Below are positions 19,547-27,399 of a stretch of 64,000 bases of DNA, piece by piece (position 1 is the first letter of the stretch; every line of letters begins with the position of its first letter). The notes below the pieces were generated by a model that did not search any database, had not been told where the DNA came from, and saw nothing but the letters and a program-made list of their open reading frames with translations. Source of the DNA: Streptomyces sp. V1I1. Lineage in GTDB: Bacteria > Actinomycetota > Actinomycetes > Streptomycetales > Streptomycetaceae. The stretch covers positions 1,054,001-1,118,000 of the forward strand of contig NZ_JAUSZH010000001.1 of the NCBI RefSeq assembly GCF_030817355.1, given 5' to 3'. The translations under genes were made by a program, and so were the position numbers.

Positions 19547-20506
19547 GTGTCTCAGCAGCCGCGGTCTCCGTCTCACTCTCACTCTCACTCTCACTCTCAG
19601 CAGACAGATCCTCTCCCTCACGATGTACTGGTCGTCGGCGGCAGCGGCGTGGACACGGTCGTCCGCGTCGACTCCCTGCCGGTCCCGCTCTCGGACTCCG
19701 TCGGAGTCGGCCCGATCCGCGAATCGCCGGGCCACACCGGCGGCAATGTGGCCCTGGGCTGCCGGGCCCTCGGGCTGAATGTCACCCTCCTCGACTACAT
19801 CGGCGACGACTGGCCGGGCCAGCAGGTCCGCGCACGGCTCGCCGAAGGCGGGGTGGCCTTCGAGCCGCTCCTCTCCCCCACCGGGACCCGCCGCGCGGTC
19901 AACCTCGTCGACCCCGCGGGCCGCCGCATGTCCTTCTACGACGCCCGTGATCCGGGGGAGTTGCGGATGCCGCGGGACTTCTACCTCCCGCATCTGCGGC
20001 GGGCCCGCCACGTCCATCTCTCGATCGTGAACTTCGCGCGGTTCCTCTACGACGACATCGAGGCGCTCGGCGTACCCGTCTCCACCGACCTGCACGACTG
20101 GGACGGACTGGCCGACCACCACCGGGAGTTCGCGCTCCGCTCGGACCTGGTCTTCCTGAGCACGGTGGGCGCGCGCGAGCGGATAGCCTCGGTGATGCGG
20201 GAGATCCTGCGCGACGGAAGGGCCCAGGCGGTGGTCGCGACGGCGGGCGCCGGCGGCTCGTACCTTCTCACCCGCGACGGCAGCAGCACCCCACGCCCGA
20301 TCCCCGCGGCGGTTCCACCCGCACCGGTGGTGGACTCCAACGGCGCGGGTGACGCATATGTTTGCGGCTTCCTGTACGGGCGGCTGTCCGGCCTCGACCT
20401 GGAGGAGAGCGCGAGGCTGGGGGCACTGGCGGGCGCCCACGCCTGCACGGCCGAGGGCAGCGGGGCACTGATCGGCCCCGCCGGACTCGTCTCGCCTCAG
20501 GTCTGA
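19547..20506 (+). CDS. PfkB-family carbohydrate kinase
   Basis: About 319 residues from the GTG at 19547; a TTG at 19538 is an alternative and neither has a strong ribosome-binding site. A Ser/His dipeptide repeat (SHSHSHSHS) lies in the N-terminal tail, encoded by a hexamer repeat. The kinase begins at HDVLVVGGSGVDT, with the PfkB signature HTGGNVALGCRALG and the C-terminal DSNGAGDAYVCGFLYG (catalytic Asp and anion hole). Substrate is likely a sugar, sugar acid or nucleoside; specificity is unclear. It ends tail-to-tail with the DUF6745-like gene, overlapping it by ten bases. Confidence 0.9.
   Translation: MSQQPRSPSHSHSHSHSQQTDPLPHDVLVVGGSGVDTVVRVDSLPVPLSDSVGVGPIRESPGHTGGNVALGCRALGLNVTLLDYIGDDWPGQQVRARLAEGGVAFEPLLSPTGTRRAVNLVDPAGRRMSFYDARDPGELRMPRDFYLPHLRRARHVHLSIVNFARFLYDDIEALGVPVSTDLHDWDGLADHHREFALRSDLVFLSTVGARERIASVMREILRDGRAQAVVATAGAGGSYLLTRDGSSTPRPIPAAVPPAPVVDSNGAGDAYVCGFLYGRLSGLDLEESARLGALAGAHACTAEGSGALIGPAGLVSPQV
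19571..19600 (+). repeat. Hexanucleotide repeat (TCTCAC)4-TCTCAG inside the kinase N-terminus
   Basis: Five consecutive units encode the Ser-His run of the PfkB-type protein. Copy-number change stays in frame and would only lengthen or shorten the SH tail. The repeat lies before the first structured residue of the kinase fold. Confidence 0.8.
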
Positions 20507-21549
20507 CGCACCGGTTCGTACGCTTCCGCCTCCAGCCCGAAGGTCCAGGCGACACCCTCCTTCGCGGTCCGGGTCGTGGGCGGCACCCGCAGCCAGTAGG
20601 TGCGGTGGGTGCCGTCCGGCTCGGGGGTGGAGTTGACCACTTCGACCATCGCCACGTCCTCGTCGTCGTCCAGCGCGATCCGCCACAGAATGCCTGTCTC
20701 GTCCCGGTGCACGGGCTGGGCGTCCGACTCGGCGAGATAGCGGTCGTAGCCGTAGTACTCGAGCATCACGCGCCGCAGTTCGGCGTTCTCCTCGCTGCGT
20801 ATGCGCTGTGGGGTGAGCGAGGTCAGTTCGCCGAGGAAGTCTGCGGGCACCGGCATGCCGCGCCAGGCGTACAGGGCGAAGCCGTCGGGGAATGCCAGCG
20901 CCGGACCGTCGCCCCTGTCGAGCCGGCCGGCCTCGTCCCGGTGGAGCTCCACCGGCCGCTCGCAGATCACCACCGCCTTTTCGTACGGCCACCACCAGCC
21001 GGCGTGGGCCGCGACCCTGACCAGCCCTTGGAGCCGGTCGCTACGGCCGTCGAAACCGGCGAGCCAGGCCGCGTCGTGCTGGCCGAGCACCGCGTCGAGC
21101 AGGGTCAGCCGGACCTCGGTCTCTGTCGCCGTCGCGTCCCCGATGTCCGCCGTATCCACCGTGTGTGCCGTGTCTGCTGTGTCCTGAACGGCCAGCGCGT
21201 CCACCACCCCTGCCCGTATCCGCTCGGCCAGTGCCCGCGTGGTGTCCCAGAGCCGGGCGCCGGTGAGGCTCCACAGCTCGGCCCAGCCGGCCGGCCCCAA
21301 CTCGTCGTGGATACGGCGGCGTTCCTCCGCCCAGGGGCGGGTGCGCACCTCGTCGCGCACCGAACGGCCGGGGTCGTCGAGCGAGCGGACGGCGGCCACA
21401 CCGGACCGCGGAGAGCCCACCCATACGATCCGCTCCGGTTCGGCGAGCCCGGCCGTGCGGTAGGCGAGGCGCACACCTTCCTCGGCGGCGGCCCGGTCCG
21501 CCGGTCCGGTCGCCGCCGCAACGGCCCGCCACTTGTCCACGTACTGCAT
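20497..21549 (-). CDS. DUF6745-like protein of unknown function
   Basis: 350 residues, soluble, no signal peptide. The C-terminal half is the recognisable part: WWWPYEKAVVICERPVELHR, GRLDRGDGPALAFPDGFALY, AWRGMPVPADF and a final segment YWLRVPPTTRTAKEGVAWTF. I associate it with DUF6745, usually next to leucine-rich-repeat proteins, but this is from memory. The N-terminal half is Ala/Arg-rich with a Thr/Asp-rich stretch (TADTAHTVDTADIGD). It is the second gene of a minus-strand pair behind the 108-residue protein, divergent from the STM4015-type cassette, so a linked function is likely. No catalytic motif is evident. Confidence 0.8.
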   Translation of the reverse strand: MQYVDKWRAVAAATGPADRAAAEEGVRLAYRTAGLAEPERIVWVGSPRSGVAAVRSLDDPGRSVRDEVRTRPWAEERRRIHDELGPAGWAELWSLTGARLWDTTRALAERIRAGVVDALAVQDTADTAHTVDTADIGDATATETEVRLTLLDAVLGQHDAAWLAGFDGRSDRLQGLVRVAAHAGWWWPYEKAVVICERPVELHRDEAGRLDRGDGPALAFPDGFALYAWRGMPVPADFLGELTSLTPQRIRSEENAELRRVMLEYYGYDRYLAESDAQPVHRDETGILWRIALDDDEDVAMVEVVNSTPEPDGTHRTYWLRVPPTTRTAKEGVAWTFGLEAEAYEPVRQT

Positions 21550-21607
21550 GTGATGCCCCGTCCCCTGTCGTCCTGAATCGGTCTGTTGCTTTGCCGCTCG
21601 TCGTCAT

Positions 21608-21934
21608 TCAGTCGGCGACGATGCGGACCGCGCCCGGCAGGTACTCGCGCTGCCGCACCACGCGGTACCAGCCCTTCGGCAGCGGTATGGCCGCATGCTC
21701 CTCGTGCACCACCCGGCCGCCTTCGGGCAGATGCAGAAGCATCGGGCCGAACGGGCCCGGCTCGCGCACCAGTCGGCCCGGGCCGGCCACGGCGTGCGCG
21801 TGACCCGTGACCTCACCGAGTGCGAGCACCAGACGCCCTCGCGCGTCCCTTGCCTCGCTCGGCGCGTCCACGGCATGCGACGGCACGGCTTCGTCCGTGA
21901 CGGGCACGATGAGCACGTCTCCCTGCCGGTACAT
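21608..21934 (-). CDS. Small beta-rich protein linked to the DUF6745-like gene
   Basis: 108 residues from the ATG at 21934, preceded by GAGGAGAG. A longer open frame upstream is not supported. The pattern MYRQGDVLIVPV, LALGEVTGHAHAV, MLLHLPEGGRVVHEEHAAI and GWYRVVRQREY suggests a small all-beta domain with several conserved His, perhaps a cupin-like or capping domain. I do not recognise a named family. It sits 58 bases upstream of the DUF6745-like gene in the same orientation and shares a 219-base divergent promoter region with the STM4015-type gene. Confidence 0.75.
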   Translation of the reverse strand: MYRQGDVLIVPVTDEAVPSHAVDAPSEARDARGRLVLALGEVTGHAHAVAGPGRLVREPGPFGPMLLHLPEGGRVVHEEHAAIPLPKGWYRVVRQREYLPGAVRIVAD

Positions 21935-22153
21935 GGCTCTCCTCTCCACGCCCGGCACCGAGTGCGCCGAACCTGGAAAAGACGCTAACGGGAGGGTCTG
22001 ACAACGGGCCCGGCGCAGGCCGCGGCACAGGACCCGGGCCCGGCACAGGCTCCGCCGTCCCCCGACCGGCCCCGTGACGGCAGTTGTCAGTGCGGCTTGG
22101 TAGAACTGCTGGCACATCAGCCGATCAACACTGTCCGGTGTCTGGAGCCCGTC

Positions 22154-23107
22154 ATGACCATTTCGGACCATCTGCAGGAGCTGCACGGCCTGCCCGTGTT
22201 CGACTTCCCCGACGCCGAGTCGAAGGTCGAGCTGCCGCAAGCGGCTTCCGTGGCCTGGCGGATCACTGTCGATGCGTACGACAGCGATGAGGAGTGGGAG
22301 GGAGCCTTCGCCCGCTTCCTCGCCGCGGTGGACACCACCCAGGTGCGGGCGCTGGTCGTCGGTGCGTGGAGCGATGTGTACGACTCGGCGCCCGACGCCG
22401 TCATCACCGCGCTGCTCGACGCACGGGAGCAACTGCCCGCTCTGCGGGCGCTCTTCCTCGGGGACATCACCTATGAGGAGTGCGAGATCTCCTGGATCAA
22501 CCAGGGGCTGGTGACGCCGCTGCTCGACGCGTTCCCCGAGCTGCTGCAGTTCGGGGTTCGCGGCGGCCAGGAGCTGAAGTTCCCCGCCGTCCGGCACGAG
22601 AAGCTCCGTTCGCTGACCGTCGAGACAGGCGGGCTCGACGCTGAGGTCGTGCGCGGCATCGCGGCCAGCGACCTGCCCGCGCTGGAGCATCTCGACGTCT
22701 GGCTCGGCACCTCCTGGTACGGAGGGAACGCCGAGGTGTCCGATCTGGAGCCGATCCTCTCCGGCGTCCGCCTTCCTCGTCTGCGGTCTCTGGCCCTGCG
22801 CAACAGCGAGATCCAGGACCAGATAGCCGTCGCAATCTCCGGCGCCCCGGTCGTCGCCGGTCTGGGCACGCTCGATCTGTCGATGGGCACCCTTGGCGAC
22901 GAAGGCGCGGAGGCCCTGCTGAACGGACAGCCGCTGACCCATCTGGAGAAGCTCGACCTCCACCATCACTTCCTCAGCGAGCCGATGGTGCAGCGCCTGA
23001 CCAAGACCTTCGAAGCCGCAGGCGTGGAGGTCGACCTCTCCGAAAGCGAGGTTGCGGAGAGGGACTCCGAAGGCGGGGAAGAGCGCTATACCGCTGTCGC
23101 GGAATGA
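22154..23107 (+). CDS. STM4015-family leucine-rich-repeat-like protein
   Basis: 317 residues from the ATG at 22154 (TGGAG seven bases upstream); an earlier GTG frame extension lacks support. The protein shows repeating LRR-like units: LPALRALFLGDITYEE, FPELLQFGVRGGQEL, HEKLRSLTVETGGLD, LPALEHLDVWLGTSWYGG, LPRLRSLALRNSEI, LGTLDLSMGTLGDEGAEAL and LEKLDLHHHFLSE. This matches the STM4015 family. It is probably a scaffold or recognition subunit. It is the first gene of a five-gene run with ATGA-type overlaps and ends four bases into the ATP-grasp gene. Confidence 0.88.
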   Translation: MTISDHLQELHGLPVFDFPDAESKVELPQAASVAWRITVDAYDSDEEWEGAFARFLAAVDTTQVRALVVGAWSDVYDSAPDAVITALLDAREQLPALRALFLGDITYEECEISWINQGLVTPLLDAFPELLQFGVRGGQELKFPAVRHEKLRSLTVETGGLDAEVVRGIAASDLPALEHLDVWLGTSWYGGNAEVSDLEPILSGVRLPRLRSLALRNSEIQDQIAVAISGAPVVAGLGTLDLSMGTLGDEGAEALLNGQPLTHLEKLDLHHHFLSEPMVQRLTKTFEAAGVEVDLSESEVAERDSEGGEERYTAVAE

Positions 23108-24258
23108 CCGGGATGCGGGCGCTACCGGGCCTGAGAACAGACCTCCGTCTCGCCGTCGTCGGCAATCCGGCCAACCGGCGCGTCGCGCTCCTCCAGGACG
23201 CCGTGCGCGCCGCCGGGCTGCCCGCCGCACGCGTCGTGCCCTGGCTCGATGTGCTGCGGGGGCGGGCGGAGTTCCGGCCGGGCGAGCGGGTGCGGATCGA
23301 CTCGCCCGGCGAGGACCCACTGGTGGAACGGGAGTTGCGCGGTACGAACGACCCGACCCGGGTGGAGGGAACTGCCCGCTGGTACGCGCGCTTCACCTCT
23401 GCCGTGCGGGATGTGGCCGATCTGACGGCGGCCGGCGGGGCAATGCTGCTCGACGATCCGCACGAGCTGGCGGTGCTGTTCGACAAGCGGCTGTGCCATG
23501 GCGTGCTGCGGCGGGCCGGGGTGCCCGTGCCCAAGTCGCCCACGTCCGGCGCCGGCGCCCCTGCCGTACGCGGGTGGGACGACGTCCGTGCGCTGACGGA
23601 GCAGACCGGTCTGCGCCGGATATTCGTCAAACTGGCGCACGGCTCGTCGGCCTCCGGCGTACTCGCCGTGGAGACGGCGGGCCGCGGGCGGGTACAAGCG
23701 GCCACCTCGGTCGAGCGTGACGTGGACGGTCGGCTCTTCAACTCCCTGCGCGTGCGCCGATATTCGACCGAGCTTGAGGTCGGCGCGCTGATCGATGCCC
23801 TGGCGCCGGACGGTCTGCATATCGAGCGCTGGCTGCCCAAGGCATCGCAGGACGGCCGGGTCGCGGATCTGCGGGTCGTCGTCATCGCGGGCCGCGCCAC
23901 CCACGCGGTCGTCAGGACGAGCCGCTCCCCCATGACCAACCTCCACCTCGGCGGCGCCCGGGGAGACCTCATCGCGGCGCGAGCGGCCACCGAAGCCGCC
24001 GGCGGCAGCTGGGCCGACACGCTCGGCATCTGCGAACGGGCCGCGGCCTGTTTCCCCGGAGCCCTGCGCGTGGGCGTCGATCTGCTGCCCGCCATCGGGT
24101 GGCGCCGCTTCGCCGTCGGCGAGGTCAACGCCTTCGGGGATCTGCTGCCGCGCCTCACCGGCCTGCCGGGCAGCGGCGCCGAGGGCCAGGACACCTATGC
24201 GGCGCAGGTTGCCGCCGTACTGAGCAGAGCAAGGAACCGCCATCGTGCAAGCGCCTGA
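23104..24258 (+). CDS. STM4014-family ATP-grasp-like protein
   Basis: 384 residues, ATG overlapping the previous stop. After an N-terminal domain (LRLAVVGNPANRRVALLQDA) the ATP-grasp fold is visible: FDKRLCHGVLRRAGVPVPKS, IFVKLAHGSSASGVLAV (glycine-rich loop), DLRVVVIAGRATHAVVR, LRVGVDLLP and the Mg-binding FAVGEVNAFGD (Glu...Asn). ATP-grasp enzymes ligate a carboxylate to an amine or thiol through an acyl-phosphate. The substrate is unknown; in the cassette it may extend a scaffold that the hydrolase and radical SAM enzymes then modify. It overlaps the next gene by 14 bases. Confidence 0.88.
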   Translation: MTGMRALPGLRTDLRLAVVGNPANRRVALLQDAVRAAGLPAARVVPWLDVLRGRAEFRPGERVRIDSPGEDPLVERELRGTNDPTRVEGTARWYARFTSAVRDVADLTAAGGAMLLDDPHELAVLFDKRLCHGVLRRAGVPVPKSPTSGAGAPAVRGWDDVRALTEQTGLRRIFVKLAHGSSASGVLAVETAGRGRVQAATSVERDVDGRLFNSLRVRRYSTELEVGALIDALAPDGLHIERWLPKASQDGRVADLRVVVIAGRATHAVVRTSRSPMTNLHLGGARGDLIAARAATEAAGGSWADTLGICERAAACFPGALRVGVDLLPAIGWRRFAVGEVNAFGDLLPRLTGLPGSGAEGQDTYAAQVAAVLSRARNRHRASA

Positions 24259-25120
24259 CACCCCCGCGCGCCAGGACGGCCCGGCCACCGGGGACATGAC
24301 CGACGCCCCGGACATGACCGAGGTCGTCGGCCGCGACGACCTGCTGCTCGTCACCCTCGACACACTGCGCTTCGACGTCGCCGCCGAGCTGGCCGCCGCG
24401 GGCCGGATCCCGAATCTCGCCCGCCATCTGCCCGGCGGCGTCTGGGAGAAACGGCACGCCCCGGGCAGTTTCACCTACGCCTCCCACCAGGCGATCTTCG
24501 CCGGCTTCCTGCCCACTCCGGCGGCCCCGGGGCCGCATCCACGTCTGTTCGCCGCGCGCTTCCCGGGCAGTGAGACCACCGCAGCCCGCACCTTCGTCTT
24601 CGACAACCCGGACCTTGTCTCGGGTCTCGCGGACACCGGTTACCGCACGGTTTGCATCGGTGGCGTCGGCTTCTTCAACAAGCTGGGACCGCTCGGCTCC
24701 GTACTGCCGGGAATGTTCCAGGAGAGCCATTGGGACCCGGAGTTCGGGGTGGCGTCACCCACCTCCTTCGAGGCCCAGGTGGACCTGGCCGAGAAGGTCG
24801 TCGCCGGACTCCCGTACGACCAGCGGCTGTTCCTGTTCGTCAACGTGCCGTCGCTGCACCAGCCGAATTGGTTCCACCTCCCCGGCGCCACTCGGGACGC
24901 GGGTGATTCGCGCGAGACGCACGCTGCCGCCCTTGAGTACGTCGACCGGCACATCGGGCGTCTCTTCGCCGCCGCGAGCAGCCGCCGCCGCTGCTTCGCG
25001 ATTGTCTGTTCCGACCATGGCACGGCGTACGGGGACGACGGCTTCACCGGCCACCGGCTCGGCCACGACGTGGTCTGGACGGTTCCCTACGCCCACTTCT
25101 TCCTCGAGGCCGCAGCATGA
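24245..25120 (+). CDS. STM4013/SEN3800-family alkaline phosphatase-superfamily hydrolase
   Basis: 291 residues, GTG start with AAGGAA upstream; the ATGs at 24297 and 24315 are alternatives. Motifs of the sulfatase/alkaline phosphatase fold: LLLVTLDTLRFD (metal Asp), APGSFTYASHQAIFAGFLP (likely Thr nucleophile), FVNVPSLHQPN, and VCSDHGTAYGDD followed by GHRLGHD (distal Asp/His metal ligands). It lacks a signal peptide, so it acts in the cytoplasm, unlike most sulfatases. The likely reaction is a phosphate or sulfate mono- or diester cleavage, or a phosphotransfer. It overlaps the HemN-like gene by four bases. Confidence 0.88.
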   Translation: MQAPDTPARQDGPATGDMTDAPDMTEVVGRDDLLLVTLDTLRFDVAAELAAAGRIPNLARHLPGGVWEKRHAPGSFTYASHQAIFAGFLPTPAAPGPHPRLFAARFPGSETTAARTFVFDNPDLVSGLADTGYRTVCIGGVGFFNKLGPLGSVLPGMFQESHWDPEFGVASPTSFEAQVDLAEKVVAGLPYDQRLFLFVNVPSLHQPNWFHLPGATRDAGDSRETHAAALEYVDRHIGRLFAAASSRRRCFAIVCSDHGTAYGDDGFTGHRLGHDVVWTVPYAHFFLEAAA

Positions 25121-26466
25121 GCAGCATTCCCCGGAGCGGCGCACCCCGCCCGTACCAGAGTTATGTCTACGCCTATCCGCACAAGACGGCCTACCGGCCC
25201 TTCCCGGAGGGCGGACGGCCCGCGCTGCGCGAGCGCTGGGCGGGGGAACGCAAGGACGCGCTCGCCCTCTATCTCCACATACCGTTCTGCGAGGTCCGCT
25301 GCGGTTTCTGCAATCTCTTCACGCGGATCGGCGCTCCCGACGAGCTCACCACGCGCTATCTCGACGCGCTCGACCGCCAGGCGACCGCGGTGCGCGACGC
25401 CCTCGGGGACGCCGAGCCGGTACGTTTCGCCGCGGCGGCGTTCGGGGGCGGCACCCCCACCTTCCTCACAGCCGGGGAACTGGACCGGCTCTGCGACATC
25501 GCCGAGAAGCGCATGGGCGCCGATCTGCGCGCTGTCCCGCTCTCCGTCGAGACGTCCCCCGCCACCGCGACCGCCGACCGGCTCACCGTCCTCGCCGACC
25601 GGGGCGCCACCCGGCTCAGCATCGGCGTGCAGAGCTTCGTCGACGAGGAGGCCAGGGCGGCCGTACGCCCGCAGCGCCGCGCCGATGTCGAGTCGGCCCT
25701 GGCCCGGATCCGCGACGCCCGCATCCCCGTCCTCAACATCGATCTCATATACGGCATAGACGGCCAGACCGAGCACACCTGGCGACGGTCACTGGACGCG
25801 GCGCTCGCCTGGCAGCCCGAGGAGCTGTATCTCTACCCCCTGTATGTGCGGCCGCTGACCGGTCTGGGCCGTGCCGGCGAGGCCGGCGATCAGGCGTGGG
25901 ACGCCCAGCGGCTGCTCCTGTACCGCAAGGGCCGCGACCATCTGCTCTCGCACGGCTACGAGCAGGTGTCGATGCGGATGTTCCGCCGCACGGACGCTCC
26001 ACCGCAGGGCGCGGACGACTACGCCTGCCAGACCGACGGCATGATCGGTCTCGGCTGCGGCGCCCGCTCCTACACCTCGACCCTGCACTACTCCTTCGAC
26101 TACGCCGTCGACATGCGCGAGATACGCGGCATCATCGACACCTACACGGCGACCGAGGACTTCAGCCGTGCCGAAGTGGGGCGCGAGGTCGACGAGGGCG
26201 AGGCGCGCCGCCGCCATCTCCTCCAGTCGCTCCTCCAGGCCGAAGGCATGGAAGTGGCCGGATACCGTGAGCGGTTCGGCCGCCACCCGGTCGAGGACTT
26301 CCGGTTCGAGCTCGACCGCTTCGCCGCCCTCGGCTGGCTCGACGAGAACGCTGGGCCCGACCGGCTGAGGCTGACCGCCGAGGGTCTGGCCTACTCCGAC
26401 GCCGTGGGCCCGGAGCTCTTCTCCCCCGCCGTGCGCGCCGACATGGCCGCGTACGAACTCAAGTGA
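25117..26466 (+). CDS. STM4012-family radical SAM protein (HemN-like)
   Basis: 449 residues. The radical SAM cluster motif is HIPFCEVRCGFCN (CxxxCxxC) near residue 55, followed by the HemN-type segments FGGGTPTFL, RLSIGVQSF and LNIDLIYGIDGQT and a C-terminal HemN-like helical region (GYRERFGRHPVEDFRFELDR). It resembles coproporphyrinogen III dehydrogenases/HemW but is a distinct family. The chemistry is unknown. Overlaps in the cassette point to equimolar production with the hydrolase. Confidence 0.9.
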   Translation: MSSIPRSGAPRPYQSYVYAYPHKTAYRPFPEGGRPALRERWAGERKDALALYLHIPFCEVRCGFCNLFTRIGAPDELTTRYLDALDRQATAVRDALGDAEPVRFAAAAFGGGTPTFLTAGELDRLCDIAEKRMGADLRAVPLSVETSPATATADRLTVLADRGATRLSIGVQSFVDEEARAAVRPQRRADVESALARIRDARIPVLNIDLIYGIDGQTEHTWRRSLDAALAWQPEELYLYPLYVRPLTGLGRAGEAGDQAWDAQRLLLYRKGRDHLLSHGYEQVSMRMFRRTDAPPQGADDYACQTDGMIGLGCGARSYTSTLHYSFDYAVDMREIRGIIDTYTATEDFSRAEVGREVDEGEARRRHLLQSLLQAEGMEVAGYRERFGRHPVEDFRFELDRFAALGWLDENAGPDRLRLTAEGLAYSDAVGPELFSPAVRADMAAYELK

Positions 26467-26475
26467 GGCTGAGCC

Positions 26476-27399
26476 GTGGACCTGACGATCCTCTACCGGG
26501 GCCCGCTGGCCTCCTGCGACTACGACTGCCCGTACTGCCCCTTCGCCAAGCGGCACGACAGCTCCGAGCAACTGCGTGCCGACCGCTCCGCGCTCGAACG
26601 CTTCGCCGCCTGGGCGTCCGAGCAGACGGACGACCAGCTGTCGATTCTGTTCACGCCGTGGGGCGAGGGTCTGGTCCGCTCCTGGTACCGCCGCACCCTC
26701 ACCGAGCTTTCCCGGCTGCCGCACATCCGCCGGGTCGCCATCCAGACGAACCTCAGCTGCCGCACCGGCTGGGTCGCGGACGCCGATCTCGACGCCCTCG
26801 CGCTCTGGTGCACGTACCACCCGGGCCAGACTCCGTACGACCGCTTCCTCGGCAAGTGCCGTGACCTGTCCGGGCGCGGGGTCCGGTTCAGCGTCGGGGT
26901 CGTCGGCTTCCCCGGGCATTTGGCCCAGGCCCGCCGCCTGCGCGCCGATCTGCCCTCGCCCGTCTACCTCTGGGTGAACGCGGCCGAGGGACGCAGCTAC
27001 ACCGACGCCGAGGCCGCCGAGTGGACGGACATCGACCCGTTCTTCCCGTACAGCCGCGATCCGCACCGCTCGGCAGGGCTCCCGTGCCGGACGGGCGAAT
27101 CGGTGATCTCGGTAGACGGTGACGGCACGGTGCGGCGCTGCCACTTCGTGCGGGACGAGCTGGGCAATCTCTACGACGGCTCCTACCGGCGGGCGCTGCG
27201 CCCGCGCGGCTGTCCGTCGGCCGTCTGCGACTGCCATATCGGCTATGTCCATCTGGAGGCGCTGCCGCTGTACGACGTGTTCGCGGGCGGTGTCCTGGAG
27301 CGGATCCCGGCCGTGCCCGCCGCTACTCAGCCGTCGTGCGGAGCGGGAAAGCCGATCCCCGTCAGCCTCACAGCACCTCGGCGCGCAGCCGGTGCATAG
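26476..27399 (+). CDS. STM4011-family radical SAM protein
   Basis: 307 residues, GTG start nine bases after the preceding stop. The N-terminal LLYRGPLASCDYDCPYCPF-type region, here ASCDYDCPYCPFAKR, holds the CxxxCxxC Fe-S cluster motif. Further Cys occur near the C-terminus (RRCHFVRDE, RGCPSAVCDCHIGY), which may bind an auxiliary cluster as in SPASM/Twitch enzymes. It is the last gene of the cassette. Two different radical SAM enzymes with an ATP-grasp and a hydrolase suggest biosynthesis or modification of an unknown small molecule or peptide. Confidence 0.9.
   Translation: MDLTILYRGPLASCDYDCPYCPFAKRHDSSEQLRADRSALERFAAWASEQTDDQLSILFTPWGEGLVRSWYRRTLTELSRLPHIRRVAIQTNLSCRTGWVADADLDALALWCTYHPGQTPYDRFLGKCRDLSGRGVRFSVGVVGFPGHLAQARRLRADLPSPVYLWVNAAEGRSYTDAEAAEWTDIDPFFPYSRDPHRSAGLPCRTGESVISVDGDGTVRRCHFVRDELGNLYDGSYRRALRPRGCPSAVCDCHIGYVHLEALPLYDVFAGGVLERIPAVPAATQPSCGAGKPIPVSLTAPRRAAGA

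Follow-up and report, generated by a model that had tools for sequence, protein, structure and literature searches.

What do a ligase, a phosphatase-like hydrolase and two radical S-adenosylmethionine (SAM) enzymes do when they are encoded in one compact row behind a leucine-rich-repeat (LRR) protein? This question is raised by a stretch of 64,000 nucleotides from Streptomyces sp. V1I1 (contig NZ_JAUSZH010000001.1, positions 1,054,001 to 1,118,000, forward strand; hereafter the window), in which the genes STM4015, STM4014, STM4013, STM4012 and STM4011 face away from a divergent pair encoding a DUF6745 protein and a protein of 108 amino acids, here called s108. The original prediction, made from the letters of the window, had taken the five-gene cassette for a biosynthetic or modification pathway, which appears plausible on the comparisons reported here, and the seven genes, with their overlaps and gap, were found on re-reading the coordinates to lie where it had placed them. 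Beyond that prediction, the locus combines promoters of the DNA-damage type with nearly invariant protein C-termini. We propose, with a probability of roughly 0.4, that the cassette is a DNA-damage-induced module in which a group would be ligated to the C-terminal glutamate of STM4015 and worked on there by the radical SAM enzymes.

STM4015 (22154..23107, plus strand) is an LRR protein of 317 amino acids that ends in ...ERYTAVAE. Its last residue was glutamate in 121 of 121, 119 of 120, 154 of 157 (five-gene loci, defined by profile matches to all five genes) and 46 of 46 proteins (class-level sample) of four overlapping sets, and the glutamate-ending proteins came from Actinomycetota, Deinococcota, Bacillota and Pseudomonadota; the sole exception among the 120 stops one residue short on a contig of 1,112 bases. 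A cyanobacterial orphan also ended in glutamate, as did 104 of 120 Bacteroidota-type homologues (two of the 104 without the tail), and nearly all of the other 16 were apparently cut or frame-broken (P0305, one of the 16, ends ...YMYPYIN). The match of STM4015 to its homologue of known structure, PDB entry 2ra8 (E 5e-80), likewise stops at a glutamate (...YPMITE), residue 354 of 362. The residues just before the terminal glutamate vary (V/I/L; A/G/S/T), and an acidic run precedes it. In the alignment that gave this run and the body positions 36 and 136 discussed below, the Bacteroidota set was represented only by proteins ending in TE or SE, which biases the terminal-glutamate figure there. Across 99 loci, the entropy of the last residue was 0.14 bits for STM4015, as against 3.04 for STM4014, 2.31 for STM4013, 0.75 for STM4012 and 2.88 for STM4011; the end of STM4012 showed moderate conservation, with Lys in 86 of 100, and the other three varied freely. 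The divergent pair showed the same tendency. The last residue of s108 (21608..21934, minus strand) was aspartate in all 87 proteins from five-gene loci and in all 92 non-viral and 81 viral matches, and that of the DUF6745 protein (20497..21549, minus strand; 350 amino acids, ending ...YEPVRQT) was threonine in 86 of 89 proteins from five-gene loci and 73 of 75 non-viral matches; in viral DUF6745 proteins we found Thr 23 times, Ser seven times and Trp once. Short duplicate loci are included in these non-viral and viral numbers.

The second observation concerns the intergenic region between the two gene groups (21935-22153). The pattern TTGTCRG-N10-TA had only two sites in the window, and both lie back to back in this region. 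The site facing s108 (21982..22004, minus strand; its TTGTCRG-N10-TA part is 21986-22004) reads TTGTCAG-N10-TAGCGT, is of the RecA-NDp/PafBC type and fits TANNNT, whereas the site facing STM4015 (22084..22102, plus strand) reads TTGTCAGTG-N8-TA and continues as TAGAACT in its second half, which does not fit TANNNT. We take TTGTCRG-N10-TANNNT to be the RecA-NDp consensus, which was reportedly defined by Gamulin et al. in 2004. Among 75 divergent intergenic regions, the pattern TTGTCRG-N10-TA faced s108 in 65, STM4015 in 51 and both in 44; given these motifs, the shared promoter region that the original prediction had assumed is real and conserved. The strict pattern was present in 74 of 85 loci with core and pair, in seven of eight with the core only and in none of 20 other loci. 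We then freed its first base, after the class-level loci had been viewed, and searched the full motif within 150 bases of s108 and the shorter TGTCRG-N10-TA within 200 bases of STM4015. In this form, it preceded s108 in 95 of 98 actinobacterial loci (70/72, 11/12 and 14/14, the last being the class-level loci and, as the relaxation was made after the fact, not independent), compared with 57 of 20,000 random stretches. The first STM4015 of a complete cassette was preceded by the shorter motif in 75 of 79, four of 13 and nine of 18 loci of three sets, and the relaxed pattern was also found at five of 14 STM4015 loci that lacked the full core among the order relatives. None of the 78 viral s108 copies examined carried this pattern.

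In the genome of the window, the motif occurred at 39 sites, compared with four for the reversed pattern. Of the 38 other sites, 35 had a downstream reading frame, and we scanned 20 of these, ten picked by eye as repair-like and ten others. Behind the picked sites lay genes for RecA, UvrB, RuvC, an NAD-dependent DNA ligase and a uracil-DNA glycosylase, together with a DnaX-type DNA polymerase III protein, an MgsA-type ATPase, a DinG-like helicase and a BRCT-containing exonuclease. No repair gene was named at the ten unpicked sites, where S6 and HAD-IA matches exceeded the cut-off and several frames had no family match. Taken by themselves, the 38 sites form a list of candidate DNA-damage genes for this streptomycete. 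The genome also contains a Pup ligase family gene at 6801189 and two WYL genes 2-3 kb downstream (6804596 and 6805558), which are probably pafBC, judging from the pafA-pafBC-like gene order. The parts of the literature on PafBC/RecA-NDp and RDRM/DdrO responses that were available do not mention the cassette; the radical SAM gene that appears in damage-response data there, vnz_31145, is likened to thymine-crosslink repair enzymes (PMC9380542, available text).

Outside the actinobacteria, a different operator was found at the same place. We searched the Deinococcus loci with a pattern that we take to be that of the radiation/desiccation response motif (RDRM). An RDRM-like operator lay 25-50 bases upstream of s108 in all four Deinococcus loci fetched, and it was the only such site in about 18 kb of each record at the mismatch limit used (two for L011; three for L019, L285 and L286). 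The site had one mismatch in L011 (reached in 0 of 200 shuffles), three in L019 (5 of 200), one on both strands in L286 (2 of 200) and two on both strands in L285 (0 of 200). According to the available text of the sources, the damage regulator of Deinococcus, DdrO, acts at a 17-bp RDRM palindrome (PMC5552922, PMC8533742), for which the consensus published in D. radiodurans is TATGYYHTTARCRKA (PMC8533742). Thus, at the level of operator sequences, two unrelated damage regulons seem to converge on the same s108/DUF6745 pair.

The enzymes of the cassette indicate what kind of chemistry could be involved. All five core proteins exceeded the curated NCBIfam cut-offs, and the family assignments of the original prediction were borne out: STM4015 (NF038076, 397 bits), the ATP-grasp ligase STM4014 (23104..24258; NF038074, 450 bits), the alkaline-phosphatase-superfamily hydrolase STM4013 (24245..25120; NF038075, 422 bits), the HemN-like radical SAM enzyme STM4012 (25117..26466; PRK08208 (NF006067), 641 bits), which contains a CX3CX2C motif, and the radical SAM enzyme STM4011 (26476..27399; NF038073, 411 bits), with a cysteine-rich, SPASM/twitch-like C-terminal part. 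All are on the plus strand and are joined, in this order, by overlaps of 4, 14 and 4 bases and a 9-base gap; the start of STM4013 is either GTG at 24245 or an internal ATG near 24296. When the STM4014 profile was compared with PDB, RimK and LysX chains came first (E about 3e-5), a likeness to the RimK/LysX group rather than to LysX alone, and an alignment with E. coli RimK revealed that the motifs DxR, (S/T)NLH, GVD and EVN are retained. STM4013 matched nucleotide pyrophosphatase/phosphodiesterases (NPP) and sulfatases, and the C-terminal part of STM4011 matched SkfB (6efn, E 4e-4), an enzyme of ribosomally synthesized and post-translationally modified peptides (RiPPs). In Bacteroides (L244), STM4011 is fused to a C-terminal domain that reads as HAD-like, and in Salmonella a HAD gene adjoins STM4011, which together hint at a phosphorylated intermediate. 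Nine places among the order relatives (L136 and L236 were read closely) had STM4015 with only a divergent STM4014-like ATP-grasp alongside; on this gene content, the ligase and the LRR protein may by themselves make up the minimal unit.

From these features we infer the following route. The module would be controlled by PafBC in actinomycetes and probably by DdrO in Deinococcus. STM4015 would serve as an LRR scaffold with its C-terminal glutamate as the point of action, and STM4014 would activate this glutamate and attach an amino compound. The tethered group would then be remodeled by STM4012 and STM4011, and STM4013, with a HAD phosphatase in some lineages, could take off a phosphate or sulfate; the product might be either released or retained, leaving a protein with an altered end. 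The s108/DUF6745 pair, which is phage-borne and whose C-terminal Asp and Thr are likewise nearly invariant, would join as an auxiliary unit driven by a promoter of the same type. Ligation at the glutamate is proposed because STM4015 has an acidic run and a terminal glutamate and because LysX, in the available text of two papers, links its substrate to the C-terminal glutamate of LysW, within an EDWGE motif (PMC10433800, PMC9303977).

The main rival explanation is that the terminal glutamate is structural. In that case the tail would cap or latch the LRR body, STM4015 would be an adaptor, and the substrate of the enzymes would be a small molecule in free form or some other protein. What speaks most strongly against ligation is that the tail is ordered. 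In the AlphaFold2 (AF2) model of STM4015 (pLDDT, the model's confidence score, 96.9), the tail is confidently placed (pLDDT about 93), and the structural model of 2ra8 comprises 351 of its 362 residues, both unlike a flexible carrier arm; in addition, body positions 36 and 136 are basic in 98% and 96% of the proteins and could hold the tail. However, the invariance is found at the very last residue while its neighbors vary, no basic body residue is among the invariant or 90% columns, and the partner ligase STM4014 resembles ligases that act at a C-terminal glutamate. We consider a purely structural tail somewhat unlikely. Other observations also weigh against ligation at the glutamate under damage control. 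Three STM4015 proteins of five-gene loci, in the arrays L130, L131 and L132, end in RRYVGIGA or RRYLGIGA, that is, in alanine; these represent one tandem paralogue in three related arrays, whose array neighbors end in glutamate. Five lone STM4015 loci (L138 and L143-L146) had no STM4014 match, and no LysK-like peptidase or LysW fold was found by Pfam in the seven genes and three neighbors, LysK not having been sought elsewhere in the genome. With regard to the operators, the strict motif was found in only four of 18 class-level cassettes, none of the 79 loci of the largest set had a STM4015-facing motif that fits TANNNT (the last T is missing), no damage-type operator was recognized in Salmonella or Methylobacterium, and Paenibacillus had only a weak LexA-like match with two mismatches.

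Two further explanations would keep only one half of the proposal. A damage-induced pathway for a small molecule or cofactor might operate with no protein carrier, STM4015 sensing or positioning the damage signal. The damage-type promoters and the fusion or adjacency of HAD genes would fit this, as would the WGR domain PF05406, which is listed for 88 of the 120 Bacteroidota-type homologues shown, but three separate, nearly invariant C-terminal residues would be left unexplained, and we regard it as improbable. Conversely, the promoter motif might be read by some other activator, the link to DNA damage being wrong and the cassette answering another stress. The letters of the RecA-NDp consensus are those that we assume, which leaves room for this view, and, in the available text of PMC9380542, a first search found the M. 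smegmatis PafBC motif not to be conserved in S. venezuelae. Nevertheless, the excess of forward over reversed sites in the genome, some of them before recA, uvrB, ruvC and the ligase and glycosylase genes, argues against it, as do the RDRM-like operators in Deinococcus and the RecA-NDp motifs reported at S. coelicolor recA and SCO6735 (PMC5087735, available text). This alternative is quite improbable in our view, and the damage-induced ligation module is the reading that we carry forward.

The original prediction had stood on the five genes being kept together in other genomes, and this was found to be the case: profile matches to all five, with profiles built from seed alignments, recurred together in 99 fetched loci, which excludes chance. 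These loci were mostly from Streptomyces (the best 80 of 575 were kept), and also from Deinococcus, Paenibacillus, Salmonella and Methylobacterium, in all four of which the gene order STM4015-4014-4013-4012-4011 is identical; sampling outside Actinomycetota rests on plasmid records. The locus sets overlap, at least one contig enters the counts twice (L089 and L238 seem to be a single contig of one genome), and in a few loci, such as L028 and L147, genes are split or partial. Two or more copies of STM4015 were present in 52 of the 99. In 41 related genomes, STM4015 and STM4011 each exceeded the cut-off in 18 and STM4014 did so in 17, as did all three together in 17. A second sample, 20 loci of other actinomycete families, contained 18 complete cassettes, 14 of them with the s108/DUF6745 pair. 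The closest named relative of the window's STM4015 was from Streptomyces lunaelactis (90% identical). The literature reached by search gave no pathway for the cassette; in Salmonella, STM4013.S is listed with a binding site for sigma-54 (PMC3844500, available text). In a PADLOC scan, six of the seven proteins had no match, and STM4012 scored 27 bits to the candidate PDC-M51A, which may reflect the radical SAM fold only.

Some loci appeared to be incomplete or rearranged. Apparently decayed cassettes, with a STM4011 match that lacks its N-terminal part, were found at G016:C3:711993, beside a DUF6745 fragment, and at G027:C379:43521, beside the s108/DUF6745 pair, which suggests loss. A plasmid of Bacteroides finegoldii (L244) carries a cassette with a large internal deletion spanning STM4013 and STM4012, and a short fragment similar to the C-terminal part of STM4013 stands by itself elsewhere in the genome of the window (G000:C1:5339077-5339271). 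A divergent STM4013-like hydrolase was also present inside a different cluster in three loci (L013, L018 and L148), where the genes, as we read them, include a kinase-like gene in L018, one for a MoaA-like radical SAM protein in L018 and L148 and, in L013 and L018, a small VPIPVND protein with a NUDIX gene; a lasso B2 gene is also present in L013.

The s108/DUF6745 pair adjoined 87 of the 99 five-gene loci. Methylobacterium and three Deinococcus records (L011, L019, L286) had it beside the cassette; Paenibacillus, Salmonella and others among these loci did not. In the 41 related genomes, all 20 s108 matches adjoined a DUF6745 match, and all 16 strong s108 matches lay within 6 kb of a STM4011 match (15 over the cut-off and one remnant, in G027); in G033 the STM4015 adjoining a strong s108 is partial, and in G036 a strong s108 adjoins STM4014 and STM4011 on a contig with no STM4015 match. 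The pair also occurs alone. We kept 80 of 115 stretches of soil viral contigs that encode a relative of s108 (L151-L230; counts include short duplicate loci), and DUF6745 was its recurrent neighbor there, in a BLAST cluster that spans 78 of the 80 loci and has 55 members with a profile match; other neighbor clusters spanned at most 11 loci, both 11-locus clusters overlapping s108 on the opposite strand, and none of the 80 loci contained a core gene. Ten phage records, eight of them named Microcystis phages, contained s108, and the plasmid pDFI2 of Deinococcus ficus (L285) had the pair with no cassette within the 18 kb shown. Thus, given its occurrence alone in viral contigs and on this plasmid, the pair is a separate, recruited module, which has been retained next to the cassette in actinomycetes and Deinococcus. 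The original prediction had suggested that the pair may belong to the cassette: co-conservation of the five genes, the shared promoter and an association with the pair far above chance all stand, but the pair is not obligatory. On pDFI2, where s108-DUF6745 has the RDRM-like site upstream, a VWA protein comes next and a glutathionylspermidine synthase-like gene lies beyond it; glutathionylspermidine synthase is a relative of the ATP-grasp enzymes.

With 393 bits to PF20530, the label DUF6745-like given in the original prediction is too weak, and the gene is a DUF6745 member proper. By contrast, s108 had no family match in Pfam or NCBIfam and scored 51 bits to PHROG 27831, whose function is not annotated. 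Its invariant residues (A38, G40, E41, T43, G44, H47, H77, H80 and D108), which include the motifs GE-TGH-H and H-EH, suggest a metal site and a free C-terminal signal. AF2 predicted a beta-rich fold (mean pLDDT 83) with a tail below 50 (segments 98-100 and 103-108).

How does the cassette compare with known systems? RimK is the enzyme of glutamylation of ribosomal protein S6, and the likeness here lies in the ATP-grasp motifs and, as proposed for STM4015, a C-terminal glutamate acceptor; in the cassette, however, the acceptor would be an LRR protein and radical SAM and hydrolase steps are added. The likeness to LysW/LysX (ArgW/ArgX) is that a RimK/LysX-type ATP-grasp accompanies a protein whose acidic tail ends in an invariant glutamate, and in both, by analogy, later enzymes would act on the tethered group. 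In contrast to the small zinc-binding LysW, STM4015 is an LRR fold of about 317 amino acids, two radical SAM enzymes and a hydrolase of the alkaline phosphatase fold take the place of the lysine/arginine enzymes, and the cassette carries DNA-damage-type promoters. According to the available text, a genetically encoded carrier is the site of C-terminal chemistry in pearlins as well (PMC9303977), and pearlins and SPASM RiPPs would share with the cassette this proposed carrier chemistry and the radical SAM tailoring; no short precursor peptide was found among the genes tested, a folded LRR protein being present instead, and Pfam revealed no peptide aminoacyl-tRNA ligase (PEARL, LanB-like) domain in ten proteins. 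The true homologue 2ra8 (Q64V53_BACFR, a Bacteroides WGR-LRR protein), whose match ends in glutamate, differs by a longer N-terminal part, with WGR (PF05406) in its 99%-identical protein P0243, and its entry title names no function. The motif types of the PafBC/RecA-NDp and RDRM/DdrO regulons precede s108 and often STM4015. By the features tested, the cassette belongs to neither the LysW nor the pearlin systems and would be new as a system, and by analogy its way of working may resemble theirs or that of RimK/S6. If the glutamate is indeed ligated by the LysX route, the system would shrink to a variation on carrier-protein chemistry. A new class of carrier or target, in which a RimK-like ligase would charge the LRR glutamate upon damage, two radical SAM enzymes would build the group and a phage-spread pair would follow the same C-terminal logic, is a rather doubtful further step.

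From Salmonella to Streptomyces, a phosphatase-like hydrolase and an ATP-grasp ligase have been kept together with two radical SAM enzymes, and the nearly invariant terminal residues point to the exact place to look, the C-terminal glutamate of STM4015, which makes the cassette directly testable. Judging from its promoters, the cassette would belong to the DNA-damage response of two phyla, a membership that stands apart from the carrier reading and could be examined by itself even if that were wrong. If the broader reading with the phage-spread pair is true, bacteria and some phages would share a new damage-response chemistry at protein C-termini.

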